Of a DNA stretch of 64,000 bases, positions 4,362 to 63,828 are shown piece by piece. Below the pieces are notes generated by a model, which saw nothing but the letters and a program-made list of their open reading frames with translations, did no database searches and was not told the origin of the DNA. Source of the DNA: Rhizobiaceae bacterium (lineage in GTDB: Bacteria; Pseudomonadota; Alphaproteobacteria; Rhizobiales; Rhizobiaceae). The position numbers and the translations under genes were made by a program. Numbering within the stretch: the first letter of the stretch is position 1; each line of letters begins with the position of its first letter. Where the stretch lies: assembly GCA_019635715.1 (NCBI GenBank), contig JAHBYY010000007.1:1-64000 (forward strand), in the 5' to 3' direction.

Positions 4362-4837
4362 TGGCCGGCATAGCAGTATCGACGACCATCAACGGCGATC
4401 CCGTCGAATATCTTTGCCAGCCGGACGAGACGCTGCTCGAGGTGCTGCGCGAGCGGCTGGGCCTGACCGGCGCCAAGGAAGGCTGCGGCACCGGCGACTG
4501 CGGCGCCTGCAGCGTCATCGTCGACGGCCGGCTCGTCTGCTCGTGCCTCGTTCTCGGGGCAGAGGCGGAAGGCCGCCGCATCGAGACCATCGAAGGCATG
4601 GCGGACGGCGACAGGCTGCATCCGCTGCAGCAGAAGTTCATCGAGCACGCCGCGCTGCAGTGCGGCATCTGCACGCCCGGCTTCCTGATCGCGGCGAAGG
4701 ACCTTCTGGCCAGGAACCCAGATCCCACGGAAGAGGAAATCCGCTTCGGTCTCGCCGGCAACCTCTGCCGTTGCACGGGCTACGACAAGATCGTCCGCGC
4801 CGTCCAGGACGCCGCCAGCGCAATGAGGGCAGCATGA
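4361..4837 (+). CDS. Molybdenum hydroxylase 2Fe-2S (small) subunit
   Basis: The 158-residue protein has both clusters of the family. The plant-ferredoxin-type site GCGTGDCGAC plus VCSC gives Cys42, 47, 50 and 60. The helical site CGICTP with NLCRCTG gives Cys101, 104, 136 and 138. It carries electrons from the molybdenum centre to FAD. Two adjacent ATGs (4358 and 4361) are possible; 4361 is taken because AGGAGG then sits 6 bases away. The gene overlaps the stop of the FAD subunit by one base, and its own end overlaps the start of the large subunit by 4 bases, so the three are translationally coupled. Confidence 0.93.
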   Translation: MAGIAVSTTINGDPVEYLCQPDETLLEVLRERLGLTGAKEGCGTGDCGACSVIVDGRLVCSCLVLGAEAEGRRIETIEGMADGDRLHPLQQKFIEHAALQCGICTPGFLIAAKDLLARNPDPTEEEIRFGLAGNLCRCTGYDKIVRAVQDAASAMRAA

Positions 4838-7104
4838 CCATTGGTTTCGATCCCCGCTACCTGAAACGAGACTTCGCTTCTGTCGGCACGCGGCCTCTGC
4901 GACCCGACGGCATCGACAAGGTCACCGGCCGGGCGCGCTACGGCGCCGACTTCAACATGGCCGGCCAGTTGGTCGGACGCGTCCTGAGAAGCCCGCACGC
5001 CCACGCCGCCATCCGCAGCATCGACGCGTCCGCCGCCGAGAAGCTGCCCGGCGTCAAGGCGGTGATCACCGCCGCCGACCTGCCGGACCTGACCGACGGC
5101 GATGCCGCGATGTTCGACATTCTCGACAACTGCATGGCCCGCAAGACGGCGTTCTACGACGGTCATGCGGTGGCCGCTGTGGCGGCGATCGACGCCCGCA
5201 CGGCGCGGCAGGCGTTGAAGCTGATCGTCGTCGACTACGAGGTGCTCCCTCACGTTACCGACGTCGACGCGGCGATGCAGCCGTCGGCGCCGGTGCTGCA
5301 CGACCATGTCTTCACCGAGGGCGTCGAGCCGAAGCCCGGCAAGGCGTCGAACGTGCAGAAGCGCGTGCAGTACGGCCATGGTGATGTCGATTCCGGCTTC
5401 GCGCAGGCGGACGTCGTCATCGAACGGTCGTTCAAGACCGAACAGACGCATCAGGGCTACATCGAGCCGCATGCCTGCGTCGCCAACTACAGCGCGGACG
5501 GCAATGCCGATCTGTGGGTCTGCACGCAGGGCCATTTCGTCTATCGCCAGCACTGCGCGCAACTGCTCGGGCTCGATGCCTCGAAGCTGCGGGTGACCTC
5601 GTCGGAGATCGGCGGCGGCTTCGGCGGCAAGACCCATGTGTGGGCCGAGCCGATCGCCCTTGCGCTGTCGCGCAAGGCGGGGCGGCCGGTCAAGCTGGTG
5701 ATGACCCGCGACGAAGTCTTCCGTGCGTCCGGACCGACCAGTGCAACCTCGATCGACGTCAAGATCGGCGTGCGCAAGGACGGCACGATCGTCGCCGCCG
5801 ACGCGACGCTGCGCTATTCGAGCGGCGCCTATGGCGGCATGTGGGCCGAGCTCGGCGCCATGACCGCCTTCGCCTGCTATCGCCTCGAGAACGTCAGAAC
5901 GGTCGGCTATGAGGTGCTGGTGAACCGGCCGAAGACTGCGCCCTATCGTGCGCCGTCGGCGCCGATGGCGGCCTTCGCGGTCGAGAGCGTCATCGACGAG
6001 CTCGCCGCGCGGCTCGGCATCGATGCGGTCGAGCTCCGCATCAAGAACGCCGCGCAGGAGGGCACCCGGTCCTCCTATGGCCCTGTCTACGGCCCGATCG
6101 GCATCGGCCCGACGCTGGAGGCGGCGAAGAACCATCCGCACATGAAGGCGCCACTGGGCGAGAACCAGGGACGCGGCATGGCCTGCGGCTTCTGGTTCAA
6201 CTTCGGCGGCCAGACCTGCACCGACCTCAACATCGGCATGGACGGGACGGTCTCGCTGGCGGTCGGCACCATCGACGTGGGCGGCTCGCGTGCCTCGCTG
6301 TCTCTGGTGGCGGCGGAGGAACTCGGCATCGCCTACAGCCAGGTCAAGGCGGTGGTCGCCGATACGTCGAGCCTCGGCTACAACGACATGACCGACGGCA
6401 GCCGCGGCACCTTCTCCTCCTCGATGGCGACGATCTCGGCAGCGCGCAACGCCATCAAGGTGCTGCGCGAACGCGCCGCCCAGATGTGGGACATCCCGGT
6501 CGACAACGTGATCTGGGAGGGCGGCCACGCCGTCGCCGTCGGCGAGAAGCACGGCAATCTCGGGAAGCTGTCGCTGAAGGAGATCGCGGCGGAATCCGGC
6601 AAGACGGGCGGCCCGATCGCCGGCCACAGCGAACTCGTCGCGGACGGTGCCGGCGTCTCCTTCGCCACCCATATCTGCGACATCGAGGTGGACCGCGAGA
6701 CGGGCGCGACGCGCGTGCTGCGCTATACGGTCATCCAGGATGCCGGCAAGGCGGTGCATCCGACCTATGTCGAGGGTCAGTACCAGGGTGGCGCGGCGCA
6801 GGGCATCGGCTGGGCGCTCAACGAGGAGTACATCTACGGCAAGGACGGCCGCCTCCAGAATGCGGGCTTCCTCGACTACCGCATCCCGGTGTGCTCGGAC
6901 CTGCCGATGATCGACACGCAGATCCTCGAAATCCCCAACCCCAACCATCCCTACGGCGTGCGCGGGGTCGGCGAGACGTCCATCGTGCCGCCGCTGGCGG
7001 CGATCGCCAACGCCGTGTCGAACGCCGTCGGAGTTCGCATGACGCACATCCCGATCTCGCCTCCACGCATTCTCGCGGCGCTCGACGCCGAGGCGAAGGC
7101 CTGA
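4834..7104 (+). CDS. Molybdenum hydroxylase catalytic Moco-binding (large) subunit
   Basis: The 756-residue protein is the catalytic subunit, which hydroxylates a carbon centre with water as oxygen source. The glycine-rich Moco loop GGGFGGKTH begins near residue 260. The active-site loop PYRAPSAP is at 370-376. The GVGETS motif near 711-716 supplies the conserved glutamate base (Glu714). The loop is neither the CODH-type AYRCSFR nor the purine-dehydrogenase FRGFG form, so it is not CO dehydrogenase and probably not xanthine dehydrogenase itself. Aromatic or N-heterocyclic substrates and aldehydes are all possible. The ATG overlaps the previous stop, and the stop overlaps the MoaD-like start. 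Confidence 0.9.
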   Translation: MTIGFDPRYLKRDFASVGTRPLRPDGIDKVTGRARYGADFNMAGQLVGRVLRSPHAHAAIRSIDASAAEKLPGVKAVITAADLPDLTDGDAAMFDILDNCMARKTAFYDGHAVAAVAAIDARTARQALKLIVVDYEVLPHVTDVDAAMQPSAPVLHDHVFTEGVEPKPGKASNVQKRVQYGHGDVDSGFAQADVVIERSFKTEQTHQGYIEPHACVANYSADGNADLWVCTQGHFVYRQHCAQLLGLDASKLRVTSSEIGGGFGGKTHVWAEPIALALSRKAGRPVKLVMTRDEVFRASGPTSATSIDVKIGVRKDGTIVAADATLRYSSGAYGGMWAELGAMTAFACYRLENVRTVGYEVLVNRPKTAPYRAPSAPMAAFAVESVIDELAARLGIDAVELRIKNAAQEGTRSSYGPVYGPIGIGPTLEAAKNHPHMKAPLGENQGRGMACGFWFNFGGQTCTDLNIGMDGTVSLAVGTIDVGGSRASLSLVAAEELGIAYSQVKAVVADTSSLGYNDMTDGSRGTFSSSMATISAARNAIKVLRERAAQMWDIPVDNVIWEGGHAVAVGEKHGNLGKLSLKEIAAESGKTGGPIAGHSELVADGAGVSFATHICDIEVDRETGATRVLRYTVIQDAGKAVHPTYVEGQYQGGAAQGIGWALNEEYIYGKDGRLQNAGFLDYRIPVCSDLPMIDTQILEIPNPNHPYGVRGVGETSIVPPLAAIANAVSNAVGVRMTHIPISPPRILAALDAEAKA

Positions 7105-7349
7105 TGGTCGAAGTGACGCTCTGGGGATCACTCGGGGCGATCGCCGGCGGCAAGAGCCGGATAGAGGTCGAGGCCAAGGACATCAGGGAGCTGTTCCGCA
7201 AGCTTGCGGAACGGTATCCCGCGATGGAGCCGTGGATCGACCGGGGGATCGCCGTCTCCATCGACGGGACGATCTATCGCGACACCTGGTCCAAGGAGCT
7301 TCCGGAGGACGCGGAGATTTTTCTCTTGCCGCGCCTCGCCGGCGGATAG
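7104..7349 (+). CDS. MoaD/ThiS-family sulfur carrier protein
   Basis: The 81-residue beta-grasp protein ends in the diglycine LLPRLAGG that MoaD and ThiS proteins need for adenylation and thiocarboxylation. The family supplies sulfur, for example the dithiolene sulfurs of molybdopterin. Its ATG overlaps the TGA of the large molybdenum subunit, so it belongs to the same transcript. That position suggests a dedicated role in making or maturing the cofactor of this hydroxylase. This is inferred from context, because a housekeeping moaD would normally stand with moaE. No partner MoaE or E1-like enzyme is visible in the window. Confidence 0.8.
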   Translation: MVEVTLWGSLGAIAGGKSRIEVEAKDIRELFRKLAERYPAMEPWIDRGIAVSIDGTIYRDTWSKELPEDAEIFLLPRLAGG

Positions 7350-51710: not shown

Positions 51711-52607
51711 TTAGTCCTTCGGCCGGCGATCGATGCCGGCCATCTGCTCCAATACCGCGCAGACGCTGGCCGTGTCCTGGAGTTCGCGTCCGGTGGCGGC
51801 GCCGACGTGATAGAGTTGCCCCGCCGCGGCGAAGACCGGCGTGGAGACGTTCAGCCCGGCCGCGAAATCGCCGATGATGGCGAGGTCCTTGAGATGGGTG
51901 CGGACGGTCGCGGTGGCCTTGTCGTAGCTGTTGTCGCGCATCAGCGGGCCGCGCACCTGGAACATGCGCGAGGAGCCGGCGCTGTCGGCGAGCGTGTCGT
52001 AGATCAGGGCCGGGTCGAGGCCGGCCTTCATGCCGAGCACCATCGCCTCGCCGGCCGCGACATTGTGGATGGTCACCAGCAGGTTGGCGACATATTTCAT
52101 GATGCTGCCGTTGCCGAACGCGCCGAGATAGCGCTGCGCGCGGGACATGCCGTGCATCGCCGGCAGGGCCGTCCGGTAGGCCGCCTCGTCGCCGCTGGCG
52201 AAGACGACCAGATCCCTGTTCATGGCCTGTGCGCCCGTGCCGCTCAGCGGGCAGTCGAGCAGGGTCTTGCCTGACGCGGCGAGCCTCGCCTCAGCCGCGC
52301 GCTTGTCGGCGAGCGGCAGGGTCGAACATTCGATCAGGATCGCCGGCCCGGACGCGGCGGCGAGGCCGTCAGGCCCATCGATCGCGGCATGCAGGGCGGC
52401 CGGGGAGGGCAGGGAGAGGAAGATGATCTGCGCCGCCTCGGCAACCGCGCGGGGCGACGGGCAGGGCGTGCCGCCCTCGCGCTGCAGGCGGGCCATCGCT
52501 TCCGAGGACGGATCGTAGCCCGCGACTGCGAAGCCGTGCTTCAGCAGGTTGTGGCTCATGGCGAAGCCCATGACGCCGACGCCCACCATGCCGATCGTTT
52601 GTGACAT
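51711..52607 (-). CDS. 3-hydroxyisobutyrate dehydrogenase-family NAD(P)-dependent oxidoreductase
   Basis: The 298-residue beta-hydroxyacid dehydrogenase has GMVGVGVMGFAMSHNLLKHG at the start for the cofactor. DCPLSGTGAQA near residue 118 is the substrate loop, and a catalytic lysine is in MKYVANLLV near 172. It would oxidise a 3-hydroxyacid or reduce a semialdehyde such as tartronate semialdehyde. GGAG lies 7 bases before the ATG. The 301-base palindromic element ends 11 bases upstream, so the gene is separated from the rest of operon D by that element. Confidence 0.87.
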   Translation of the reverse strand: MSQTIGMVGVGVMGFAMSHNLLKHGFAVAGYDPSSEAMARLQREGGTPCPSPRAVAEAAQIIFLSLPSPAALHAAIDGPDGLAAASGPAILIECSTLPLADKRAAEARLAASGKTLLDCPLSGTGAQAMNRDLVVFASGDEAAYRTALPAMHGMSRAQRYLGAFGNGSIMKYVANLLVTIHNVAAGEAMVLGMKAGLDPALIYDTLADSAGSSRMFQVRGPLMRDNSYDKATATVRTHLKDLAIIGDFAAGLNVSTPVFAAAGQLYHVGAATGRELQDTASVCAVLEQMAGIDRRPKD

Positions 52608-52617
52608 TGCCTGCTCC

Positions 52618-52918
52618 TAGAGCGAGATGAGGTTGGATTGAACCATTCTGCCGGCGATGGTTTGGGGCAAGGTCGAGGGCTTCTGCGCGGTCGTACCGGC
52701 GGTACGGCCAATGCAGAAGACCGAAGGATTTGACCCAAGCCAGCCCGGCCCTGCGGGTTTGCGTTCGACGGGCGCCCGCGGCGTCGGCTTGCTCGGCCGT
52801 ACCACCGGTACGACCTTCGCCATTGGGCGAGCCGCTTGTCTCGCCGTCCTTCGGACTCTGGCGGATCGCCGCCTCGAACGCCAAACTGAATGGCTCAATC
52901 CAGCCTCATCTCGCTCTA
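52618..52918. mobile_element. 301-base palindromic element with TAGAGCGAG ends, MITE-like
   Basis: The outer arms 52619-52650 and 52886-52917 are inverted copies matching at 29 of 32 bases (starting AGAGCGAGATGAGG). A second inner pair, 52689-52709 and 52795-52815, matches at 20 of 21 (GGTCGTACCGG core). Both ends are TA followed by GAGCG, compatible with TA-targeting IS630/mariner-type mobilisation. The element has no gene of its own. It lies exactly between the fused ABC gene, whose stop TAG is formed by the element's end, and the ribosome binding site of the 51711-52607 gene. Confidence 0.78.
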
Positions 52919-55399
52919 ATGTGCCGCTGCGGTGCGGGCGCGGGTGCGCGAATACATCGCCGTCGCCGCCAGGATCAGCAGGCCGGGCAGCCAGTACTGC
53001 CATGCCGTGCCGAGACCGAGGAAGCCGGATGTGGCGGTGATCTCCTGCACCAGGATGACGCCCGCCAGCGCCCCGAGGAACGAACCACGCCCGCCGAAGA
53101 TGCTGGCCCCGCCGAGAACGACGGCGGAGATGCTCTGCAGCGTGTAGTTCTGGCCGACCGTCGGATCGCCGACGCCGACCTGCGCCGCCAGCATGAAACC
53201 GCCGATCGCCGTCAGCACCGAGCAGGACACATAGGCCAGGATGACGCTGCGGTTGACGCGGGCGCCGGCGCGGTGCGCGGCGACCTCGCTCGAGCCGATG
53301 GCGCGCAGCTCCATGCCATAGCGCGTCTTGCGAAGGGCCCATTCCAGCAGCAGCGCGGTGGCGACTGCGGCGAGGAAGGCGAGCGGCAGCGGCCCGATCC
53401 GCATGGTCAGCGTCTGGACGATCTCGCGCCGGAAAAAGCCGTCCGGCACGGAGCGCAGCACGAGCGAGACGCCCTGCAGGGCGATGAACATGGCAAGGGT
53501 GGTGATCAGCGGCGACAGGCCGACGATGCGTATGAGCACTCCGTTGACCAGCCCCACGAGTGCCGCCGCGCCGATCGCCACCACCAGGCCGAGGAGGAAT
53601 TCCGGAGGCGAGTTCAATTCCGTGGCAAAGAATGAGAGGATGACGACCGTTAGGCCCGTCAGCGGGCCGACCGACAGATCTATGCCGCCGGTCAACAGGA
53701 CGATGAGCTGGCCCATCGCGATGAAGGCCAGCGCGCTGGCGAGGAAGAGCGTGCCGTTGAGACTTCGGACGCTGAGGAAACGCTCGTTGACAGTCGTCGT
53801 GTAGAGGCCGAGCACGACGATCAGCGCCAGCAGAATCAGCGTCGGGGCGAGATCGCCGGAGAAGAAGCGCTTCAGCCCCTCATGGCCGGACTTGTGGACG
53901 TCGGCCTCGCGATGGCCGGCAGCGCCGATCGCGGCGCCGGTGATCTTCTCTTCGGTCAGATCGTCGCCGGTCAGCTCGCGCACGACCTTGCCGCGCGAAA
54001 ATACCAGCACCCGGTCACAAAGACCCTGAAGCTCGATAGCGTCCGAGGACAGCACCACGACGCCTGCGCCCTTGGCGGCGATCTCGCGGATCACCCGGTA
54101 GAGTTCGACGCGCGCACCGGCATCGACGCCGCGCGTCGGCTCGTCGGCGAGAAACACGGACGGCTCGGCGGCCATCGAACGGGCGAACAGCACCTTCTGC
54201 TGGTTGCCGCCCGACAAGGTCGATATCGCTACCTCCGGCGACGGCGTCTTCACTGCCAGTGAACGGATGAATGAGCCGACCAGGCTCGTCTCGGCATTGC
54301 GCGAGACGAAGCCGAAGCCCGCGAGCCTGTCGAGCACCAGCGCCGTGGCGTTCTCGCGCACCGTCAGCGGCAGGAAGGCACCCTCGGTGTGGCGATCGCC
54401 AGGCAGATAGATGATGCCGCCATCCTGCGCCGCGACGGGATTGGACAGCCGCACCGCCTTTCCATCGACGGACAGCTCGCCACTGACGGAGACGAGACCG
54501 GCAAGCGCGCGGATGAAGTCGCGCTGGCCATTGCCTTCGACGCCGGCCAGGCCGACCACCTCTCCAGGGCGAAGCTGCAGGTCGACGCCCTGCAGCTTGC
54601 CGCCACGCAGGGCCTTGGCATCCAGAATCGGTGCGCCCGCGTCGCGCTGCGTCGTCTTGTCAGGAAAGGCGCGCCCGACGGAGCGGCCGATGATGAGTGC
54701 GAGGATTTCCTCTTCCGAAATGCCGGTGGCGGGGAATGTGCCGCGCATCCGGCCGTCACGCAGGATCGTTATCCGGTCGGCCACACGGCGCACCTCCGGC
54801 AGGCGATGCGAGATGTAGACGACGGCCGTGCCCTGCGCCTTGATGCGTGCAATCTGGTCGAAAAGCCTTTCCGTTTCGACGGCGGTGAGCGCCTCCGTCG
54901 GCTCGTCGAGTACCAGCACCTTCGGCTGGAGGGCCAGTGCCCGGGCGATCTCGACCAGTTGCCGCTCGGCGATGCTGAGGTCCGAGACGCGCAGGCGCTT
55001 GTCGAAGTCGGCGCCGACTTCGGCAAGCTGCCGGTCTATCCATTCCGACGACGAGGCGGCCGATGCGCGCCGTTCGGCAGGGACGCAATAGAGGAGGTTC
55101 TCGGCGACGGTAAGGTCGTCGAGAACCGACGTATGCTGGTAGACGACGCTCAGGCCGAGCGCCTGGGCACGGGCCGGATCGGCCTCGCCCAGCGCCTCGC
55201 CGCCGATCTCGATGGTTCCGGAGTCCGGGGCGGTGGCACCGGCCGCCACCGCCATCAGCGTCGACTTGCCCGCACCGTTCTCGCCCAGGAGCGCGTGCAC
55301 CTCGCCCTCGACCACCTCCAGCGTGACGCCGCCGAGGGCGGTCACGCCTGGATAGGTCTTGACGACGTTGACGAGGCGGAGGACGGGAAGGCCGGGCAT
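52916..55399 (-). CDS. Fused CUT2-type ABC importer: two ATPase domains plus permease
   Basis: The 827-residue protein joins a complete double ATPase to a complete RbsC-type permease. The ATPase half (residues 1 to about 500) has GENGAGKST near 38, LSIAERQLVEIARAL, LVLDEPTEALT, then [22 protein letters not shown] and FLADEPTRGVDAG. The permease half (about 510-827) has [16 protein letters not shown] and VVLGGASIFGGRGS and about ten membrane segments. These are normally separate genes. A second, unfused permease is encoded at 56598-57671, with the binding protein in between. The stop TAG is created by the end of the palindromic element at 52618-52918. Confidence 0.92.
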   Translation of the reverse strand: MPGLPVLRLVNVVKTYPGVTALGGVTLEVVEGEVHALLGENGAGKSTLMAVAAGATAPDSGTIEIGGEALGEADPARAQALGLSVVYQHTSVLDDLTVAENLLYCVPAERRASAASSSEWIDRQLAEVGADFDKRLRVSDLSIAERQLVEIARALALQPKVLVLDEPTEALTAVETERLFDQIARIKAQGTAVVYISHRLPEVRRVADRITILRDGRMRGTFPATGISEEEILALIIGRSVGRAFPDKTTQRDAGAPILDAKALRGGKLQGVDLQLRPGEVVGLAGVEGNGQRDFIRALAGLVSVSGELSVDGKAVRLSNPVAAQDGGIIYLPGDRHTEGAFLPLTVRENATALVLDRLAGFGFVSRNAETSLVGSFIRSLAVKTPSPEVAISTLSGGNQQKVLFARSMAAEPSVFLADEPTRGVDAGARVELYRVIREIAAKGAGVVVLSSDAIELQGLCDRVLVFSRGKVVRELTGDDLTEEKITGAAIGAAGHREADVHKSGHEGLKRFFSGDLAPTLILLALIVVLGLYTTTVNERFLSVRSLNGTLFLASALAFIAMGQLIVLLTGGIDLSVGPLTGLTVVILSFFATELNSPPEFLLGLVVAIGAAALVGLVNGVLIRIVGLSPLITTLAMFIALQGVSLVLRSVPDGFFRREIVQTLTMRIGPLPLAFLAAVATALLLEWALRKTRYGMELRAIGSSEVAAHRAGARVNRSVILAYVSCSVLTAIGGFMLAAQVGVGDPTVGQNYTLQSISAVVLGGASIFGGRGSFLGALAGVILVQEITATSGFLGLGTAWQYWLPGLLILAATAMYSRTRARTAAAH

Positions 55400-55411
55400 G
55401 CGTGTCGTCCG

Positions 55412-56518
55412 TTACTCGGTCTTGCCGAACTCGGCGAGTTCGCCCGGCTTGAACCCGGACGAGGCGAAGGTGTCGGGAGCCTCGTTCGGATCGCAGGCCG
55501 GCGCCTTGCCGCCCGGCAGCGAGCTTTCGAAGATGCCGAGGTCGAAACGCAGCGGCTCCTTGTTCTCGATGCCCTGGAAGGCCGCGATGGCCTTGCGGGC
55601 GGCGACGCGCCCGATCCAGTTGCGGCCGGAGATCGTGCCGATCTGGAAATTCGGATTGTCGCCCTTCAGCTTCTCGTACTCGCAGGACAGTGCGTTCGCC
55701 TCGAGCGAGGTGACCGGCACCAGCGGCTTGTTGGCGGCCTGGTAGGCGCGGATGACGCCCAAGGTCGCGAAGCCGTCGCTGTCGTTGATGACGGCGTCGA
55801 TCTTCGGATATTTCGCCAGCATCGCCGACATCGCCTGCTGGACCTGCGCGGCATCCCAGTTGGTCACCGGCCAGTCGGCATAGCCGGTCAGCAGCGTCAT
55901 CTTGGGATGGTTCTTGAAGGTGTCCTCGATGCCCTTCAACGCATTGCCCGAGACCGGGTTGCCGGCCGGGCCGCCGAGGAACACGACGTTGCCTTCGCCG
56001 CCCGTCGCCTCGATCACCCAGTTGGCCCAGGACACGCCCGCGGCGTGCTCGTCCCAGTCGAGATACTCGACATAGTCCTTGCCGTTCTCGCCGCCCGGAT
56101 CGGCTGCCCACGGCACAACCTTGACGCCGGCGTCTGTGGCGCCCTGCAGCGACGGCAGTTGCGCCTTGCCCCAGTCGGGGATGATGACGAGCGCGTCGAT
56201 GCCTTCCGAGACCATGCCGTTGACGTCGGCGATCGACTTCTGCAGGTCCATCTGGCCGATGCGCACGAGCTGCTTGACGTTGGCGCACTTGGCCGCCTCG
56301 GAGCGGACAGCCGCCATCGACGCCTTCGACCAGCCGTTGACGCCGAAGCCGTCGTGGATGCCGAGCACCATCTCCTTGTCGCCGCAGAAGGCCGTGTCGT
56401 CGGTCTTGCCGGCCGCCTGGACGACGGCGGCGGCGTCCTGCGCCATCGACGCCGGGGCGCCGAGCAGAAGGGCCGCGAGCGAACTCGCCGCCAGCAGGGT
56501 CGAGCGTGAGAATGCCAT
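55412..56518 (-). CDS. CUT2-type periplasmic substrate-binding protein of cluster D
   Basis: The 368-residue protein has a Sec signal of about 26 residues (LLAASSLAALLLGAPASMAQ), followed by a sugar-binding-type fold. Several stretches are unusual: a cysteine pair near the N-terminus (AFCGDKE, AKCANV) and another near the C-terminus (LSCEYEK, PACDPNE), which suggests disulfides. GGGAGGAATAG precedes the ATG at 56518. It lies between the permease and the fused ATPase-permease gene. Because the operon also carries an amidohydrolase, the ligand may be a nitrogen heterocycle or nucleoside-like compound rather than a simple sugar; this is an inference. Confidence 0.88.
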   Translation of the reverse strand: MAFSRSTLLAASSLAALLLGAPASMAQDAAAVVQAAGKTDDTAFCGDKEMVLGIHDGFGVNGWSKASMAAVRSEAAKCANVKQLVRIGQMDLQKSIADVNGMVSEGIDALVIIPDWGKAQLPSLQGATDAGVKVVPWAADPGGENGKDYVEYLDWDEHAAGVSWANWVIEATGGEGNVVFLGGPAGNPVSGNALKGIEDTFKNHPKMTLLTGYADWPVTNWDAAQVQQAMSAMLAKYPKIDAVINDSDGFATLGVIRAYQAANKPLVPVTSLEANALSCEYEKLKGDNPNFQIGTISGRNWIGRVAARKAIAAFQGIENKEPLRFDLGIFESSLPGGKAPACDPNEAPDTFASSGFKPGELAEFGKTE

Positions 56519-56597
56519 GATGTCTATTCCTCCCGTTGGTTCTGTTTCGAATCCGTTCGAGCCGCTGCGACCGCCCGGCCGCGGCGGCGTCGTTGCC

Positions 56598-57671
56598 TCA
56601 TCCCGGCGCATCCCGATTGTCCGGCGCGAGCTGCTGCGCCGGTTGCGGTCGCCGGCTTGGCCTGAGCATCGCCTGCCACGGCACCAGCCGGATCGACATG
56701 CCGAGAATGATGATCAGCGCCTGGATGATGAACTGCGCCGAGGTCGGTGCGCCGAGCCCGATGGTGAGCTGCTGGAGCTGCACCAGGAAGATGGCACCGA
56801 GTCCCGTCGCCGCCACGCTGCCGGCGCCGCCGAGCAGCGACGTTCCCCCGAGCACCACGACGGTGATGACCGGCAGCAGATAGGAGTGGCCGACCAGCAG
56901 GCTGGGGACGCCGAGATAGCCGGCGAGCAGCACGCCGGCGAGCGCATAGAAGAAGCCCGCGGCGGCATAGGTGGCGATCTTGTAGCCGGTGACGCGCATG
57001 CCGGCGGCGCGCGCCGCGCGTGCGCTGGTGCCGACCGCGACAAAGCGGCGGCCCACCACCGTGGCCCGCACGAACACTTCGACGATCACGATCGCCGCCA
57101 GTGCGAACAGCGCGAGATACGGGATCCCGGCGGCGCGGCCGACGGCGAAGCCACTCAGCAGCGACGGGACCGCGTTGGTCGAGGTGCCCTTGGTCAGGTA
57201 GAAAACGGTGCCGTAGAGCAGGGCGTTCACCGCCAGGGTGGCCACGAGGGGGGTCACGAAGAAGCGGGTGATGGCGATGCCGCAGATCACGCCGGAGATC
57301 ATGCCGCTGGCCAGCGCCATGGCGATCCAGAGCGGCAGGGATGCGTTGCTGCCGAGCGGGAACTGGCTCACCAGCACTGCGGCCAGCGAGATCACGCCCG
57401 GCACCGACAGATCGAGGCCGCCCTGCTGGATGACCAGCGTCTGGCCGGTCGCCGCAATGGCGAGAATTCCCGCGAAGGACAGTACCGTGAGCAGCGAGCT
57501 CGCCGAAACGCTGCCCTGCGCCAGCAAGGGGCTGACCGCAAACAGGATGATCGTGGCCGGCAGGATGAGCAGGAACTGCGGCGGCAGGAACGCCCGGATG
57601 CGGTCGATCATGGGGAAGCTTCCCCCGGACCGCGGCGAAGCGGGCCGCGGCGCGGCGCGAGCGTCGGCCAC
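56598..57671 (-). CDS. CUT2-type ABC importer permease of cluster D
   Basis: The 357-residue RbsC-like protein has the variant motif VIQQGGLDLSVPGVISL near residue 85 and VVVLGGTSLLGGAGS near 270, with about ten membrane segments and a proline/glutamine-rich C-terminal tail. The frame starts at a GTG (57671) 7 bases after the FmdB-like stop; an internal ATG 20 codons later, MIDRIRAFLPP, is an equally plausible start. It would pair with the permease half of the fused protein. Confidence 0.87.
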   Translation of the reverse strand: MADARAAPRPASPRSGGSFPMIDRIRAFLPPQFLLILPATIILFAVSPLLAQGSVSASSLLTVLSFAGILAIAATGQTLVIQQGGLDLSVPGVISLAAVLVSQFPLGSNASLPLWIAMALASGMISGVICGIAITRFFVTPLVATLAVNALLYGTVFYLTKGTSTNAVPSLLSGFAVGRAAGIPYLALFALAAIVIVEVFVRATVVGRRFVAVGTSARAARAAGMRVTGYKIATYAAAGFFYALAGVLLAGYLGVPSLLVGHSYLLPVITVVVLGGTSLLGGAGSVAATGLGAIFLVQLQQLTIGLGAPTSAQFIIQALIIILGMSIRLVPWQAMLRPSRRPQPAQQLAPDNRDAPG

Positions 57672-57678
57672 GTCCCTG

Positions 57679-57984
57679 TCACGGCCGGTCCAGGAATGAC
57701 GTGGAAGCCGGCGCCTTCGCCCGCTTCGGCGCGCCGAGCGCGACGGCCTCGGCTTTCAGGCCCTTGCGCGCGGGCGGCGTGCAGCAGCCGCAGCCGACGC
57801 GATGCGCCTTGCCAGATCTGGCGACGGCCTTCGGCTGCGCGCCGAAGCCGAGCTGTGCGCTCGCGAGCTGCCGCGGCGACAGGTGCCCGCACGCCGGACA
57901 GGCGCAGGGCTCCGCGAACAGCGCGACGGAGCGAAACTCCTCGAACGAGCCGCACCGATCGCAGTCGTAGGCATAGAGCGGCAT
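57679..57984 (-). CDS. FmdB-family zinc-ribbon protein
   Basis: The 101-residue protein starts MPLYAYDCDRCGSFEE with the FmdB zinc ribbon: Cys8-x2-Cys11 and, after 15 residues, CACPACG (Cys29-x2-Cys32). A second cysteine group, VGCGCCTPP, lies near residue 64. FmdB-type proteins occur next to amidase and formamidase genes and are thought to regulate or assist them. Here it follows the amidohydrolase gene, which fits that pattern. GGACGGAG lies just before the ATG. The actual role is unproven for the whole family. Confidence 0.82.
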   Translation of the reverse strand: MPLYAYDCDRCGSFEEFRSVALFAEPCACPACGHLSPRQLASAQLGFGAQPKAVARSGKAHRVGCGCCTPPARKGLKAEAVALGAPKRAKAPASTSFLDRP

Positions 57985-58070
57985 CCGGCAACTCCGTCCC
58001 GGCTGGCAACCCGGGGATGCGGGCCGCAACCCGGTCCGCGCCTTGGAACACTCTTGGACTCCGGACCCGA

Positions 58071-59459
58071 TCAGCTTTCGGCGTCCGTCCCCCCTGTATA
58101 CGGCTTGGGCAGCCAGTTGCCGTCGCGCGGTACGCCCGCGCGGTCGAACAGCCCGTCTACCGCGGTCTCCATGCGGCGGCGCAGCGCCTTCACGTCGACG
58201 TCGACCAGCTTGCCGTGTCGCTTGACCGCCCGACCGCGGACGAAAACCGAGTCGATATTGCCGACATGAGCGTCCTCGATCACCACGCCGACCGGGTTGT
58301 TGATCGGGAACATGTTGAGCGAGTCGGTATTGATGATGAGCAGGTCGGCATCCTTGCCGGGGGTCAGCGAACCGGTCTTGTGGTCGAGGTTCGCCGTGCG
58401 CGCGCCCTGGAGCGTGGCGAAGTCCAGCATGTCGCGGGCGGTCAGCGGCAGCGGATCGAGCAGTTTCCTCGCTTTCAGAGCCTCGGCGTTGACCACGCCG
58501 CGCGTCGCCGCCATCAGGATGCGGATCTGCGTGAACATGTCGCCGCCGACCGAGGTACAGATGTCGATCGAGATCGACGGGCGGATGCCGTGCTTCAGCG
58601 AGGAAAGCGTCGCCGGGTTGCCGTGGCCCATGTTGAGCTCGACCTCGGCGGCGATGGAAACGGTGCCTCCGGTATCGGCGATGAGCTGGAATTCGTCGTC
58701 GTCGAGGGCCGAGCAGTGGACGTAGGTGGTGCGCGGCCCGCACAGTCCCAGCCTGTACATCTGCTCGACGGGCCGGTTCAGCCCCCACAGGCCGTCGCCG
58801 GCATGGACCGTGATCGGCAGGTTGAGCTCGCGGGCACATTCCTGCTCGCGCAGGGTCTGCTCCACCGTCGCGAACTGGATGCCGCGCGGGGCGAGCGCCA
58901 TGGTGCACAGCCCGTCGTCGGAGCTGAAGTAGCGCTTCCTGACCCGGGCCACATCCTCAAGGTCCATCGGCAGGTCGCTGATCGGGAACCATTCCTTGTT
59001 GGCGTTGCCGTAGGCGAAGACGCCGCGGATGCCGGAGTCCATCAGGCCCTTGACCGCCATGTCGGAATGGTCGGGCGAGTTGTTGTTGTGCGACCAGTCG
59101 ACCAGCGTGGTGATGCCGGCGTCGAGTGCCTCGAGCGCGCCGATATAGTTGCCGACATACATGTCGTCGGGCGTATAGAGCCCACCCATCACGCCCCGCA
59201 CGCCGCCGAAATACTGCGCCAGGCTCCAGTCCGCGGCCGCGTTGCGCAACAGGCACTGCCAGGTATGGCGGTGTGTGTCGACGAAGCCGGGCAGCACGAT
59301 CGAGCCCTTGCCGTCGATCTCGTGAGCATCGACCGGGCCGAGATTCGGCCCCACGGCCGCGATCTTGGTGCCATCGATCAGCACGTCGGCGTCGAGATGC
59401 TCGCCGATGTCCTTGTCCATCGAAAGCACGATGGCGTTGCGGATGATGGTGCGATTCAT
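58071..59459 (-). CDS. Amidohydrolase/deaminase of the ATZ/TRZ (cytosine deaminase-like) family
   Basis: The 462-residue protein has the metal site of the family: DTHRHTWQ near residue 57, VHAGDGLW near 214, VHCSALDD near 243 and SIDICTSVGGD near 292 supply three histidine positions and an aspartate. GSIVLPGFVDTHRH and GARTANLDHKTGSLTPGKDAD are further signatures. It hydrolytically deaminates or dechlorinates a ring compound, for example an aminated pyrimidine, triazine or purine analogue. AGGAGG lies 6 bases before the ATG at 59459; an upstream in-frame extension to 59561 was rejected. It lies in operon D between the importer and the ring-oxidation genes. Confidence 0.88.
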   Translation of the reverse strand: MNRTIIRNAIVLSMDKDIGEHLDADVLIDGTKIAAVGPNLGPVDAHEIDGKGSIVLPGFVDTHRHTWQCLLRNAAADWSLAQYFGGVRGVMGGLYTPDDMYVGNYIGALEALDAGITTLVDWSHNNNSPDHSDMAVKGLMDSGIRGVFAYGNANKEWFPISDLPMDLEDVARVRKRYFSSDDGLCTMALAPRGIQFATVEQTLREQECARELNLPITVHAGDGLWGLNRPVEQMYRLGLCGPRTTYVHCSALDDDEFQLIADTGGTVSIAAEVELNMGHGNPATLSSLKHGIRPSISIDICTSVGGDMFTQIRILMAATRGVVNAEALKARKLLDPLPLTARDMLDFATLQGARTANLDHKTGSLTPGKDADLLIINTDSLNMFPINNPVGVVIEDAHVGNIDSVFVRGRAVKRHGKLVDVDVKALRRRMETAVDGLFDRAGVPRDGNWLPKPYTGGTDAES

Positions 59460-59642
59460 GCAACTCCTCCTGCCGCAGCCCGCCGCTGCGAGCTCTCCTC
59501 CCCGCAGCGCGACCACAGCCACTTCCGATCGTTCAGACGACCGAACCTCGAATGCGAGCAATCAGCTTCCGAGGTCAAATCCGAACTGCGATAACGATAA
59601 CAGCCGAAATTTGTGCCTTCAAATCAATAGACCTGATACCCC

Positions 59643-60242
59643 TTATTCGGGGTCTTGATGGACTGCCGACAGCCGACCGAGGTCGGCGAAGGGCTCCACC
59701 GCGCCGGCCGGCACGGGCACGTGGAAGGCATTGATGGTCATGGAGATCAGCGTGTAGTAGCCGAGGATCCCGACCAGATCGACGGTGGCCTCGAGACCGA
59801 GCGTCGAGACCGCCTGCCGGTAGGTCGGCTCCGCTACCTCGCGGCGCCTCACGAGTTCCGTCGCGAAGCCGTAGACCGCGCGCGCCTCGGCGTCGTCGAG
59901 CCTCGGCGCCGCGCCGGTGCGGATCGCCTCCGCGACCGCCTGCGGAACGCCGGCCTTGATCGCGATCGGCGCGTGGACGTGCCATTCGAAACCGGAGCGC
60001 CAGTGCGCGCCCACGACGAGAATCGCCAGCTCGGAAAGACGGGGCGCAAGGCGCGTCCCGTAGCGGCAGTAGGCGCCCAGCGCCTGCGCCTTGTCGGCCA
60101 GTCCGGGATTGACTAGCCACACCCGGAGCGGACCTTCGACGATGCCGCGCGGCCCGGACATGATGTCGTCGTAGATGCGGCGCTGATCGGCCGTCAGCGC
60201 CGACTCGTCGAGCGTCGGCGGACGGGAAATCTCATCGCTCAT
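59643..60242 (-). CDS. Carboxymuconolactone decarboxylase-family protein
   Basis: The 199-residue protein belongs to the CMD/AhpD-like family: RLSELAILVVGAHWRSGFEW with the following HVHAPIAIKAGVP carries the conserved Glu and His residues near 77-95. The AhpD Cys-x2-Cys pair is absent, so it is not a peroxidase of that type. It may act as a decarboxylase, lactonase partner or isomerase on a ring-cleavage product. The gene follows the flavin reductase by 12 bases and precedes the amidohydrolase by 183 bases. A short GACCCC/GGGGTA stem overlaps its stop. Confidence 0.83.
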   Translation of the reverse strand: MSDEISRPPTLDESALTADQRRIYDDIMSGPRGIVEGPLRVWLVNPGLADKAQALGAYCRYGTRLAPRLSELAILVVGAHWRSGFEWHVHAPIAIKAGVPQAVAEAIRTGAAPRLDDAEARAVYGFATELVRRREVAEPTYRQAVSTLGLEATVDLVGILGYYTLISMTINAFHVPVPAGAVEPFADLGRLSAVHQDPE

Positions 60243-60254
60243 GGGTATTCGGCC

Positions 60255-60782
60255 TCAGGAAAACGTAGTGAACTGGCCGAAGCGGCCCTTGGCGAAAATG
60301 AGCGGATGGCGGTCGCTGCTGTGCGTGCGCACGGTGCGGCCGATATAGAGTTCGTGGTCCCCGCCGTCGTCGCGGCGCTCCATCTCGCACTCGATGTGCG
60401 CGACCGCGCCCTGGATCAGCGGCACGCCGCCAAGGCCCTCGGTGGTGGCGACGCCGACGAACTTGTCCTCCGCGCCGCGGGCGAACTGCAGCGCGAGTTC
60501 GGCCTGGTCCTCCGCGAGGATGTTGACCGCGAAGCGGCCGGCATCGCGGAACACCGAGAGGCTCGGTGCCTTCAGGGCGAGGCTCCACAGCACCAGCGGC
60601 GGGTCGAGCGACAGGGTGTTGAAGGAACTCACCGTCACGCCGGCGCGGCGCCCCTGCGGGCACACGGTGGTCATCACGGTCACGCCGGTCGCGAAGCGCC
60701 CGAGCACCGTCCGGTACTCGGTCGGGTGCACACCCGGAGGCGGAGCGCTGTTCGAGGTCTTGGTCATTTGGAGGCTGTTCAT
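60255..60782 (-). CDS. Flavin reductase (HpaC/RutF-like)
   Basis: The 175-residue protein is a flavin-reductase-domain protein: VLGRFATGVTVMTTV near residue 27, GVTVSSFNTLSLDPPLVLWS near 48, and SLSVFRDAGRFAVNILAEDQ near 74. It would reduce FMN or FAD with NAD(P)H for a two-component monooxygenase, and the LLM oxygenase at 61919-63028 is the obvious partner. It is the first gene of the minus-strand operon D, divergent from the LysR gene across a 104-base control region. An internal ATG five codons in is also a possible start. Confidence 0.9.
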   Translation of the reverse strand: MNSLQMTKTSNSAPPPGVHPTEYRTVLGRFATGVTVMTTVCPQGRRAGVTVSSFNTLSLDPPLVLWSLALKAPSLSVFRDAGRFAVNILAEDQAELALQFARGAEDKFVGVATTEGLGGVPLIQGAVAHIECEMERRDDGGDHELYIGRTVRTHSSDRHPLIFAKGRFGQFTTFS

Positions 60783-60886
60783 GCCGATCTTTCCTCGGAT
60801 GCCGCTTGCATGAACGACAATAAAGCGATAGCCGACCCTTGAGGAAATGATATTATCAGGACGAACATATCAGAAGTCGTGATGTC
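60783..60886. promoter_or_regulatory. Divergent control region between flavin reductase and LysR genes
   Basis: The region holds TGATA/TATCA arms at 60848-60858 and, at 60863-60875, GAACATATCAGAA. The core GAACATATC of the latter recurs at 61848-61856 in front of the LLM gene. It lies where a LysR protein usually binds. Use of the same site for both operons is an inference. Confidence 0.6.
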
Positions 60887-61819
60887 ATGCTGAACATCAA
60901 GCAACTGATGGCCTTCGTCGGCGTCTACGAGGAACGCTCCTTCTCCAGGGCGGCGAAGCGGCTGAACGCCACGCAGTCCGGACTGTCGATGCAGACGCAG
61001 CAACTGGAGCAGCGGGTCGGCATCAAGCTGTTCGACCGGTCGCCGCGCGGCGTCGTCCCCACCTTCGCGGGGCACAGGCTCTACGAACTTGGCGTTGACC
61101 TGATCCGCAGGCTCGACGAGGCCGATTCGGAAATCAGGGCACTTTCCAGCGGCATCTCGGGTGACATCCGCATCGGGCTGATGCCTACCTTCACGCGCGG
61201 CGTCCTGGCACCGGCGCTGGCCGAGTTCATGGCGGACTACCGGAACGTGAAGGTGTCGATCCTCGAGGCCTACAGCGCGGTCCTCACCGAGGGCGTGGCC
61301 AATGGCGAGTTCGACTTCGCGATCGTGCCGCGCGCGCCGCACCGCGACGGACTGCGCACGCGCCTGCTCGGCTCGGACCGGGAAATCCTGGTCTGCCGGC
61401 CGAATCCGGGGCTCCGGCACCTGGCCCCGGTGCGCCTGGCCGAGCTGCCCCCGCTCAAGCTCGTGCTGCCGGCCCGGGGGAATGCGCGCCGCGACGCCTT
61501 CGAGAGCTATGCCGAACTCCATGGAATCCGGATCGCCACCATCCTCAGCATGGATGCGATGATCGCGACGCTGGAGTTCGTCACGCATTCCGATTTCGTG
61601 ACCATCCTTCCCGAAACGATCTGCGTGAATGATTTCGACGGCAAGGCGCGCTCGCTGCATCCCATCGTCGGGCCTGTGCTGACGGTCGACTACGCTGTGA
61701 TCGAGCCGGCGCGGTCGGCCATGCACCCCGCCGCGCAGCTCTTCCTCAAGGGGCTGGAGGTCCAGTACCGCAAGCTCAACGAGGTGTGGTCGCGCTATGA
61801 CGAGGGTCTCGCGCAATAG
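60887..61819 (+). CDS. LysR-family transcriptional regulator of cluster D
   Basis: The 310-residue protein has an N-terminal LysR helix-turn-helix (FVGVYEERSFSRAAKRLNAT, then QSGLSMQTQQLEQRVG) and a substrate-binding domain from about residue 90. It probably activates the divergent flavin reductase operon and the LLM/hydrolase genes downstream, given the shared operator sequences on both sides of its gene. The co-inducer may be the imported compound or a ring-cleavage product. The ATG at 60887 is the natural start for the family. Confidence 0.92.
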   Translation: MLNIKQLMAFVGVYEERSFSRAAKRLNATQSGLSMQTQQLEQRVGIKLFDRSPRGVVPTFAGHRLYELGVDLIRRLDEADSEIRALSSGISGDIRIGLMPTFTRGVLAPALAEFMADYRNVKVSILEAYSAVLTEGVANGEFDFAIVPRAPHRDGLRTRLLGSDREILVCRPNPGLRHLAPVRLAELPPLKLVLPARGNARRDAFESYAELHGIRIATILSMDAMIATLEFVTHSDFVTILPETICVNDFDGKARSLHPIVGPVLTVDYAVIEPARSAMHPAAQLFLKGLEVQYRKLNEVWSRYDEGLAQ

Positions 61820-61828
61820 ATATCACGC

Positions 61829-61851
61829 GTTCTGATTGGTTACATCAGAAC
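61829..61851. promoter_or_regulatory. Inverted repeat before the LLM monooxygenase gene, probable LysR site
   Basis: GTTCTGAT and ATCAGAAC form a perfect 8-bp inverted repeat with a 7-base spacer, in the 99-base gap between the LysR stop and the LLM start. The size and dyad match a LysR-type recognition box. The adjoining GAACATATC is shared with the region before lysR. Confidence 0.7.
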
Positions 61852-61918
61852 ATATCGTTTCTTCTGACATCGCCGATTCCGATAGCCTTTACCGTGTCGA
61901 AATGCCGGAGCAGCACGG

Positions 61919-63028
61919 ATGCAACTCGGATTCTTCACCATGCCTATCCACCCGCTGGATCGGGATTGGCGCGAGACGCTGCGTGAGGACCAGGAGGCCT
62001 TCTTCCTCGCCGAGGAACTGGGCTTCGCGGAGGCCTATGTCGGCGAGCACATCACCGACCAGGCCGAGAACATCCCGTCCTGCATCGTCTTCCTGGCCAG
62101 CATCGCGGACCGCATCAAGCGCATGCGCCTCGGCACCGGCACGGTGAACCTGCCGAACTCCCATCCGGCGCATGTCGCCTCGCAGGTCGCCATGCTCGAC
62201 CATCTGCTCGACGGTCGGCTGAACTTCGGAATCAGCCCTGGCGGGCTGCTTTCCGATGCGGAGATCTTCGGCAATCTCGACGCCGACCGCAACGCGATGT
62301 TCGTCGAGGGCATCAATGCCGTGCTGGACCTCTGGACCAAGGAGCCCCCCTACGATCTCGACGGCAAGTACTGGAAGATCTCGACGAAGCGCACGCTGAT
62401 CCCGGAGATCGGCCAGGGCATCGTCTCGAAGCCGCTGCAGAAGCCGCATCCGCCGGTCGTGGTCACCGCGGTTGCGCCCTTCTCGAAGGGTGTCTCGGCG
62501 GCGGCGGCGCGCGGCTGGGATCCCATCTCCGCAAACTTCCTGATGCCGAAATGGGTCGCCACGCACCGCGATTCCTACGCCGAGGGCTGCAGGCAGGGCG
62601 GGCGCGCGGTCGACTTCTCGAACTGGCGGGTCGCCAAGAGCATCTTCGTGGCCAACGACCGGAACACGGCGCGGGACTATGCGAGGGGCGAGGGCAGTCC
62701 CTATGTCCACTACTTCCGGTCGCTGTTCACCAAGCTGGTGAGGAACGGCCGGTCAAACCTCTTCAAGGAGGACCCGGACATGAAGGATTCGGACCTGTCG
62801 CTCGAAAGCGTCATGGACCGCCTCGTCATCCACGGCACACCGGACGAGGTGGCCGACAAGCTGCTCGCCTTCCGCGAGGAAGTCGGGCCGTTCGGCACGC
62901 TTCTCTATGCCGGCCATGACTGGCGGGATGCCGCGCTCGGCAAGCAGTCGATGCGGCTGCTTGCCGAGAAGGTGCTGCCGAAGGTCAATGCAGGCATCGG
63001 CGCGGCGGAGGTGAGGGGGGCGGCATGA
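61919..63028 (+). CDS. LLM-class flavin-dependent monooxygenase
   Basis: The 369-residue protein is a luciferase-like TIM barrel: MQLGFFTMPIHP at the start, EELGFAEAYVGEHIT near residue 35, RLGTGTVNLPNSHPAHVASQ near 72 and LDGRLNFGISPGG near 98. Such enzymes use reduced flavin from a partner reductase to insert one oxygen from O2. It resembles the limonene/alkane-monooxygenase-like branch more than RutA. GGAG is 9 bases before the ATG. The alpha/beta hydrolase start overlaps its stop by 4 bases, and the flavin reductase lies in the divergent operon. Confidence 0.9.
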   Translation: MQLGFFTMPIHPLDRDWRETLREDQEAFFLAEELGFAEAYVGEHITDQAENIPSCIVFLASIADRIKRMRLGTGTVNLPNSHPAHVASQVAMLDHLLDGRLNFGISPGGLLSDAEIFGNLDADRNAMFVEGINAVLDLWTKEPPYDLDGKYWKISTKRTLIPEIGQGIVSKPLQKPHPPVVVTAVAPFSKGVSAAAARGWDPISANFLMPKWVATHRDSYAEGCRQGGRAVDFSNWRVAKSIFVANDRNTARDYARGEGSPYVHYFRSLFTKLVRNGRSNLFKEDPDMKDSDLSLESVMDRLVIHGTPDEVADKLLAFREEVGPFGTLLYAGHDWRDAALGKQSMRLLAEKVLPKVNAGIGAAEVRGAA

Positions 63029-63828
63029 CCGAGATGCGGAAAGTCGGTTCGGGCGATGCCACGCTGCATGTCGAGATCGAGGGTGACGAGGGTCTGCCCT
63101 GGCTGATCGCCAGCAACTCGCTCGCCGCCGACCTCTCCATGTGGGACCCGCAGATGCGGGAGCTGACGAAGCGCCGCCGCGTGATCCGTTATGACACCCG
63201 GGGCCATGGACGCAGCAGCGCGCCGGTCGGACCCTACTCTTTCGACATCCTCGTTGCGGATATGGTCGCGGTGCTCGATGCGCTGGAGGTCGGCGAGGCC
63301 GACATCCTCGGCCTCTCGCTCGGCGGCATGACGGCGCTCGGCATCGCGCTCGAACATCCGGGCCGCGTGCGGCGGCTGGTCTGCGCGCAGGCGCGCGGCA
63401 TGTTTCCGCCGCCGGGCCTCGCCATGTGGGACCAGCGTGCCCAGGCGGTCCGCGACGGCGGGATGGCGGCGGTCGTGGACGACACGCTGTCGCGCTGGTT
63501 CACGCCGGAAACCCATCGCGATCGCCCAGACGTGGTCGCGCTTGCCCGCGCGATGATCCTCGCCACCTCGCCCGACGGCTACATCGCCTGCACGGCGGCG
63601 CTGAAGGGCCTCGACTATCTGCGCCGTCTCGGCGACATCAAGAGGCCGGCGCTCTACATCGCGGGCGAACTGGACGGCGGTGCCCCGGTCGACGTCATGC
63701 GCGAGATGGCCGACGCCACGCCCGGCAGCCGCTTCGAGGTGCTCGCGGGCGTCGCCCATATCGGCAATATGGAGGCGGCCGCCGCCTTCGACGCCGCCGT
63801 CGCCGGCTTCCTGTTCGGCGGCGACTGA
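63025..63828 (+). CDS. Alpha/beta hydrolase (3-oxoadipate enol-lactonase/RutD-like)
   Basis: The 267-residue alpha/beta hydrolase has the nucleophile elbow GLSLGGMTALG with the serine near residue 97, an oxyanion-type SNSLAADLSMWD near 31, RYDTRGHGRSSAP near 55 and a late histidine in GVAHIGNMEAA near 242. It would hydrolyse an ester, lactone or amide made by the monooxygenase. Its ATG overlaps the LLM stop, so the two enzymes are made together. The family resembles enol-lactonases, but the substrate is open. No gene that I can support follows it to the right edge. Confidence 0.88.
   Translation: MTEMRKVGSGDATLHVEIEGDEGLPWLIASNSLAADLSMWDPQMRELTKRRRVIRYDTRGHGRSSAPVGPYSFDILVADMVAVLDALEVGEADILGLSLGGMTALGIALEHPGRVRRLVCAQARGMFPPPGLAMWDQRAQAVRDGGMAAVVDDTLSRWFTPETHRDRPDVVALARAMILATSPDGYIACTAALKGLDYLRRLGDIKRPALYIAGELDGGAPVDVMREMADATPGSRFEVLAGVAHIGNMEAAAAFDAAVAGFLFGGD

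Follow-up and report, generated by a model that had tools for sequence, protein, structure and literature searches.

The gene cluster at positions 51711-63828 of a 64,000-nucleotide stretch of DNA from a Rhizobiaceae bacterium (contig JAHBYY010000007.1; hereafter the window) combines a CUT2-type importer and an amidohydrolase (AHY) with a flavin reductase, a luciferase-like monooxygenase (LLM), an alpha/beta hydrolase and a LysR-family regulator. Our comparative analysis suggests that the cluster is probably one catabolic unit, made up of two modules that answer to a single LysR regulator. One system is preferred over two because the halves recur together in two other genomes and because operator-like sites lie before both; on these grounds, the proposal of the initial annotation that the cluster is one candidate undescribed catabolic system holds. 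The cluster is best placed among the two-component LLM ring-cleavage clusters, and this modular version appears to be undescribed: among the titles and opening abstract lines listed by searches of open-licence PMC, none describes a cluster of such make-up.

A scan of genome contigs for AHY, which reaches only loci encoding either of two exact 7-residue peptides, resulted in 30 loci, 24 of them at 52-79% identity. The AHYs most similar to that of the window were found in Lichenifustis flavocetrariae (locus L094, 79%) and a Rhodospirillales metagenome-assembled genome (L095, 74%). These are the only two loci of the scan in which LLM is present, with the remaining 28 lacking it, and both also carry the reductase, hydrolase, dehydrogenase and LysR genes, in gene orders differing from that of the window. 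Because some AHY loci cover no more than 3 to 21 kb, LLM was also searched for in the whole genomes of 21 of 24 organisms. It was detected at E <= 1e-50 in five of these 21 AHY-bearing genomes, reaching 66% identity only in L094 and L095; the LLM copies of the other three (39-46%) lie outside the fetched AHY locus. We further counted close relatives (E <= 1e-150) in draws of 297 genomes of the order and 385 of the class, the own genome being included each time. Close LLM relatives were found in 18 and 5 genomes, and close AHY relatives in 3 and 1 (the own genome), respectively. Because both are rare in the draws, yet are neighbors in the window and at two of the 30 AHY scan loci, their grouping exceeds chance. 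The result that the initial annotation named as contradicting its proposal, namely that homologues of the two halves never co-occur, was thus not obtained. Several points weigh against joining the halves in this way: the restriction of the scan to two peptides, the shortness of some loci, the lack of a close AHY in all 17 other close LLM loci of the order, and the fact that an orthologous importer was not seen in the fetched L095 stretch, nor the CMD-family protein in the fetched L094 stretch.

The second line of evidence is a predicted regulatory site. A dyad upstream of the LysR gene is common to the window and two related genomes, G154 and G117. Its strict form, TATCAN7TGAT, matches the window at exactly three places and has no others in the entire 4.57 Mb assembly (85% complete), and the reversed control has no match. 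The first match, at 59623-59638, lies upstream of the AHY and importer genes, some 160 bp from the start of AHY; the second, at 60868-60883, lies in the gap between the flavin reductase and LysR genes, and the third, at 61821-61836, about 80 bp before the LLM gene. The corresponding predicted LysR operators are annotated at 59622..59638, 60868..60884 and 61821..61837. Since the motif was derived from one of these places, two are independent. A weight matrix ranked the same three places first, third and fourth in the 64 kb (scores 16.2, 14.2 and 14.2). In none of 20 simulated windows did the third-best score exceed 13.4, versus 14.2 here; the best score reached 16.2 once. A further operator-like place, with a score of 15.0, lies in the gap between a MetE-like and a CobW gene beyond the window end (L093, 3308).

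A looser motif, AT[C/T]AN7TGAT, has 11 matches in the window, L094 and L095, of which nine fall in seven named promoter gaps, with the remaining pair lying 76 bp upstream of the LLM gene in L094 and L095. Within 400 bp upstream of AHY, it is present in all three loci with LLM and in none of the 22 without LLM, one of these 22 extending no more than about 230 bp upstream. By hand count the chance of such a split is 1 in 2300, the three AHYs being sisters and hence not independent. For LLM the results are less uniform: the looser site occurs 76-99 bp before LLM in five of 20 other LLM loci (L074, L075, L079, L094 and L095), and it lies close to the LysR start in seven of the 13 LLM loci in which LysR was seen (L074, L075, L084, L085, L088, L090 and L094). 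We therefore predict one LysR regulon, with an operator-like site common to both halves; as to the possibility raised earlier that LysR affects one side only, the predicted sites fall on both sides. The counterevidence is as follows. The four sites from which the weight matrix was made, located upstream of LysR in relatives, had themselves been picked with the help of the pattern, and the second-ranked place of the matrix (23535, score 15.3) lies outside the cluster. The looser motif was set after L094 and L095 had been seen, and the upstream site of an AHY clade of one lineage may reflect a single event. Finally, the short form ATCAN7TGAT is unspecific, with 7 to 59 places per genome in six relatives, so that operator specificity is supported only for the genome of the window.

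Sequence comparison also revealed separate evolutionary histories of the two halves. The best identities of one set of proteins point toward Lichenifustis (AHY 79%, ATPase-permease 75%, binding protein 70%, permease 69%, dehydrogenase 68%, and the SDR and MetE-like proteins encoded beyond the window end 76% and 79%), and those of the other toward G154 or G117 (LLM 82%, LysR 69%, hydrolase 64%, reductase 61% and CMD protein 60%). In the AHY tree, the window, L094 and L095 form one clade (support 100/100). In the LLM tree, the window groups with G154 and G117 (100/100), and L094 and L095 are placed in a different supported clade. Forcing the LLMs of the window, L094 and L095 into one clade costs 117 log units and is rejected (p-value of the approximately unbiased test 2.4e-67), this constrained group having been chosen for its common AHY though the tree had already been seen. 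Given such separate trees, the AHY-LLM pairing either originated repeatedly or had one half exchanged in place, and in both cases it was retained. Separate histories, together with the observation that either half is usually found without the other, are also what would be expected if an importer-AHY operon and an LLM operon were two independent neighbors merely lying side by side. We regard this explanation as unlikely, as it does not account for the recurrence of both halves in two further genomes and the operator-like sites before both.

The oxygenase half was characterized through its relatives. LLM relatives at 63-82% identity are present in 17 other genomes of the order draw, and their surroundings were inspected over at most 20 kb (for two loci, 8.3 and 14 kb). 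LysR was found near 10 of the 17, the reductase near 11 and the alpha/beta hydrolase near eight; the CMD protein and the dehydrogenase (44-48%) were each found near two, with an identity bar of 41% or more. By this comparison, module 2 consists of LLM, accompanied in many relatives by flavin reductase, LysR and the PcaD-like hydrolase and in few by the CMD protein and the beta-hydroxyacid dehydrogenase, the scarcity of the latter two counting against the one-unit reading. Neighbor genes, named by Pfam for a selection only, are of a type associated with nitrogen heterocycles (N-heterocycles) in 12 of the 17 loci. They include xanthine-dehydrogenase-type molybdenum (Mo) hydroxylases (L076, L077, L080-L083, L085 and L086), PuuE-like deacetylases (L075, L077 and L079-L082; in L077, TIGR03212 matches with 126 bits, cut-off 425) and a nucleobase permease (L089). 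As a control, 18 genomes hold 3-33 Mo-hydroxylases each, from which about one in 17 loci would be expected by chance (hand estimate) versus eight observed, four of these eight belonging to one genus. The twelfth locus is L074 of genome G154, which holds the closest relative of LLM. Next to it, at positions 4493-7280, a RutB/biuret-hydrolase-like protein and a cupin are encoded together with an HxxE-containing amidohydrolase of the ATZ/TRZ type, and these may make up a second pathway for N-heterocycles. Overall, the neighbors of LLM relatives favor an N-heterocycle as substrate; no enzyme of this type was seen in the remaining five loci (L078, L084, L087, L088 and L090), which counts against it.

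Some additional observations concern the same families. In four genomes of one genus (L077, L080, L081 and L082), LLM lies beside a three-subunit Mo-hydroxylase and the PuuE-like deacetylase. More distant LLM relatives (40-41%) occur on Agrobacterium and Phaeobacter plasmids (L015 and L016), where they adjoin genes for riboflavin kinase and the synthesis of riboflavin, for thiolase/CoA-transferase proteins and for an ABC importer of the sugar type. The own genome contains a second, distant LLM (32%) with a reductase (38%) and a hydrolase (27%) at C24:48546-51596 (L002). In the window itself, a molybdopterin-binding domain match of the xanthine-dehydrogenase family is located at 6163-6906, about 55 kb from LLM.

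The LLM gene (61919..63028, plus strand; Pfam Bac_luciferase) encodes a flavin mononucleotide (FMN) monooxygenase whose closest, though distant, solved relative is 3,6-diketocamphane monooxygenase (3,6-DKMO). A profile of 27 LLM sequences matches its chain 4uwm nearly end to end with 164.7 bits, the next chain reaching 104. This type II Baeyer-Villiger enzyme needs a separate FMN reductase, as in the present cluster. H44 and E50 of LLM are invariant in 27 of 27 sequences and align with His46 and Glu52 of 3,6-DKMO (hand count). Bacterial luciferase, too, has a histidine at position 44. LLM does not retain His10 and Ser44, through which 3,6-DKMO contacts the FMN ring. According to PMC4631483, His46 and Glu52 are the sole cavity-lining residues conserved between both DKMOs, and 2,5-DKMO likewise lacks the His10 and Ser44 contacts. 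The alpha/beta hydrolase (63025..63828, plus strand), whose start overlaps the LLM stop, resembles PcaD, the 3-oxoadipate enol-lactonase: it scores 250.9 bits against TIGR02427 (NCBIfam cut-off 255.85) and 180 bits against 2xua. The likeness of LLM to 3,6-DKMO and that of the hydrolase to PcaD would favor a lactone-type product.

These similarities raise the alternative of a type II Baeyer-Villiger route in which no N-heterocycle is cleaved. AHY would turn an amide or amine precursor into a cyclic ketone or enol, LLM would form a lactone from it by oxygen insertion, the CMD protein would decarboxylate or isomerize, and the PcaD-like hydrolase would open the (enol-)lactone to a keto acid. In addition to the nearest solved chain, the matching His/Glu pair and the hydrolase family, such a route is consistent with the side-by-side CMD and PcaD-like genes in L087 and with a beta-keto-acid cleavage enzyme homologue (111 bits, cut-off 382) that adjoins the L094 reductase gene and has a relative in L078. 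We nevertheless consider it somewhat unlikely in view of the N-heterocycle-type genes in 12 of 17 LLM loci, the missing FMN-ring contacts, the luciferase histidine, and the difficulty of inferring the chemistry of this superfamily from sequence. The oxygenative opening of a nitrogen-containing ring, as put forward in the initial annotation, is thus plausible from the neighborhoods of LLM relatives, with the reservation that the closest solved relative is a ketone-to-lactone Baeyer-Villiger enzyme.

AHY (58071..59459, minus strand) belongs to the functionally unnamed PRK08204 family (NF006056, 559.8 bits, cut-off 391). Its start is most likely at 59459 rather than at the TTG at 59561, as AGGAGGAG precedes the ATG. 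It has the same fold family as ATZ/TRZ- and S-adenosylhomocysteine-type deaminases and keeps their metal ligands (H61, H63, H217, H246 and D297, numbered on the translation of 58074-59453), but at the position of the HxxE motif Glu of ATZ/TRZ deaminases it carries Asp220 (same numbering). Hydrolytic deamination, suggested earlier, is therefore unsupported as stated; since the HxxE Glu is Asp, amide or ring hydrolysis is as likely as deamination, and the reaction may be any of these. The same fused importer (51-55%) adjoins AHY in four of seven actinobacterial loci (L107, L110, L112 and L113), where LLM is absent. Judged by such neighborhoods, the CUT2-type importer and the metal-dependent AHY form module 1, accompanied here by FmdB, SDR, MetE-like and CobW genes.

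Several known systems were compared with the cluster. Rut-type pyrimidine catabolism (roles of RutA-G as given in PMC7662398) follows the same parts logic, namely LLM, FMN reductase, alpha/beta hydrolase, 3-hydroxyacid (short-acid) dehydrogenase and transporter, and a RutB-like hydrolase (142 bits, cut-off 378) adjoins the closest LLM relative in G154. Unlike Rut, the cluster has a CUT2 importer and AHY, and its proteins are not of RutA, RutB, RutC, RutF, RutD or RutG grade. RutA is absent among the family matches listed for LLM (25 of a total of 27), and no RutA chain was found in the profile search (E <= 1e-8); the RutF and RutD scores (55 and 86 bits) are far below the cut-offs (255 and 239). 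No cluster protein was assigned to RutB, RutC or RutG, the rest of the genome not having been searched for RutB and RutC. Membership in the Rut pathway, lacking a RutA-type LLM, RutF reductase, RutB and RutC in the cluster, is rejected in agreement with the initial annotation, and a close variant appears highly improbable; a functional analogue is conceivable. The lower 3-oxoadipate (Pca) pathway likewise has CMD-family and PcaD-like proteins; here, however, the PcaD-like score is just below the cut-off, and the CMD protein has no NCBIfam match. In the trigonelline (Tgn) and pyridine (Pyr) clusters, a two-component LLM (TgnB and PyrA, respectively) opens the nitrogen-containing ring and is encoded beside a reductase and hydrolases. 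In contrast to these, the present hydrolase is PcaD-like (180 bits) and not like the enamide hydrolase 3kxp (38 bits). No gene set matching riboflavin/lumichrome catabolism, as far as described in the available part of PMC12746152, was found.

Gene calls together with Pfam and NCBIfam family searches agree with the earlier description for the eleven genes in 51711-63828. All genes it named (importer, AHY, FmdB, CMD, reductase, LysR, LLM and hydrolase) are present; the dehydrogenase at 51711 had been left out of its text, although the coordinates given there start with this gene. Eight genes lie on the minus strand, in the order flavin reductase, CMD protein, AHY, FmdB, permease, binding protein, ATPase-permease fusion and dehydrogenase; LysR, LLM and the hydrolase lie on the plus strand. 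The flavin reductase (60255..60782; Pfam Flavin_Reduct) has as its nearest solved chain 5zc2, the reductase component of p-hydroxyphenylacetate hydroxylase. The CMD-family protein (59643..60242; Pfam CMD, 27.4 bits versus a cut-off of 23) contains the motif E86-W87-x-x-H90, in which Glu, Trp and His are invariant in all four aligned sequences, and had no match in PDB sequence searches, a CMD profile search included. The FmdB-family zinc-ribbon protein (57679..57984; TIGR02605, 50.7 bits, cut-off 31.3) has a 47% identical counterpart directly after AHY in L094. The CUT2-type importer consists of a permease (56598..57671; Pfam BPD_transp_2), a periplasmic binding protein (55412..56611; Pfam Peripla_BP_4) and an 827-aa ATPase-permease fusion (52916..55399; two Pfam ABC_tran domains and BPD_transp_2). 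The gene for the 3-hydroxyisobutyrate-dehydrogenase-family (beta-hydroxyacid) dehydrogenase (51711..52607; Pfam NAD_binding_2/NAD_binding_11; 68% identity in L094, 48% in L075 and 45% in L095) is separated from the fusion gene by a 308-bp gap (52608..52915) filled by a repetitive element with inverted ends, recognized by self-matches, that resembles a miniature inverted-repeat transposable element. It has 27 matches in the own genome including itself, all others being partial, and the equivalent gap in L094 measures 25 bp by gene calls. The LysR-family regulator (60887..61819; Pfam HTH_1 and LysR_substrate) has 69% identical relatives in both L074 and L075. Just beyond the window end, genes for an SDR, a MetE-like (Meth_synt_2) protein and a CobW GTPase (contig C119, about 64010-67377; L093, 1010-4377) encode proteins 76%, 79% and 44-45% identical to AHY neighbors in Lichenifustis. 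A sigma-70 promoter scan found no promoter, and terminator-like matches occurred only at chance level.

For the working of the cluster as one unit, we infer the following order of steps. The importer would take up a small cyclic, probably nitrogen-containing compound, in which AHY would cleave a C-N bond. The reductase would provide FMNH2 to LLM, which would oxygenate and open the ring, giving a lactone or N-acyl product, and the PcaD-like hydrolase would open the lactone or enamide. The CMD protein could then decarboxylate or isomerize, and dehydrogenases could carry the products to central metabolism. LysR with bound inducer would activate the three promoters together. In its most specific form, which we offer only tentatively, the cluster would be an undescribed modular pathway in which an amidohydrolase lacking the HxxE Glu, with its own importer, feeds an oxygenase of the two-component, DKMO-like type, by which a nitrogen-containing ring is cleaved. 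Elsewhere, unrelated upper modules (Mo-hydroxylase, PuuE-like deacetylase, or HxxE amidohydrolase with RutB-like protein) would join the same lower oxygenase module, with a LysR operator code in common.

The cluster thus outlines, from the genome, a pathway that can be tested both for a functionally unnamed amidohydrolase family and for a group of LLM oxygenases from many genera in one order. It would also represent a case in which catabolic modules of different history have come together, each preceded by the predicted operator of a single regulator, and the promoters and genes named here could be used for testing.

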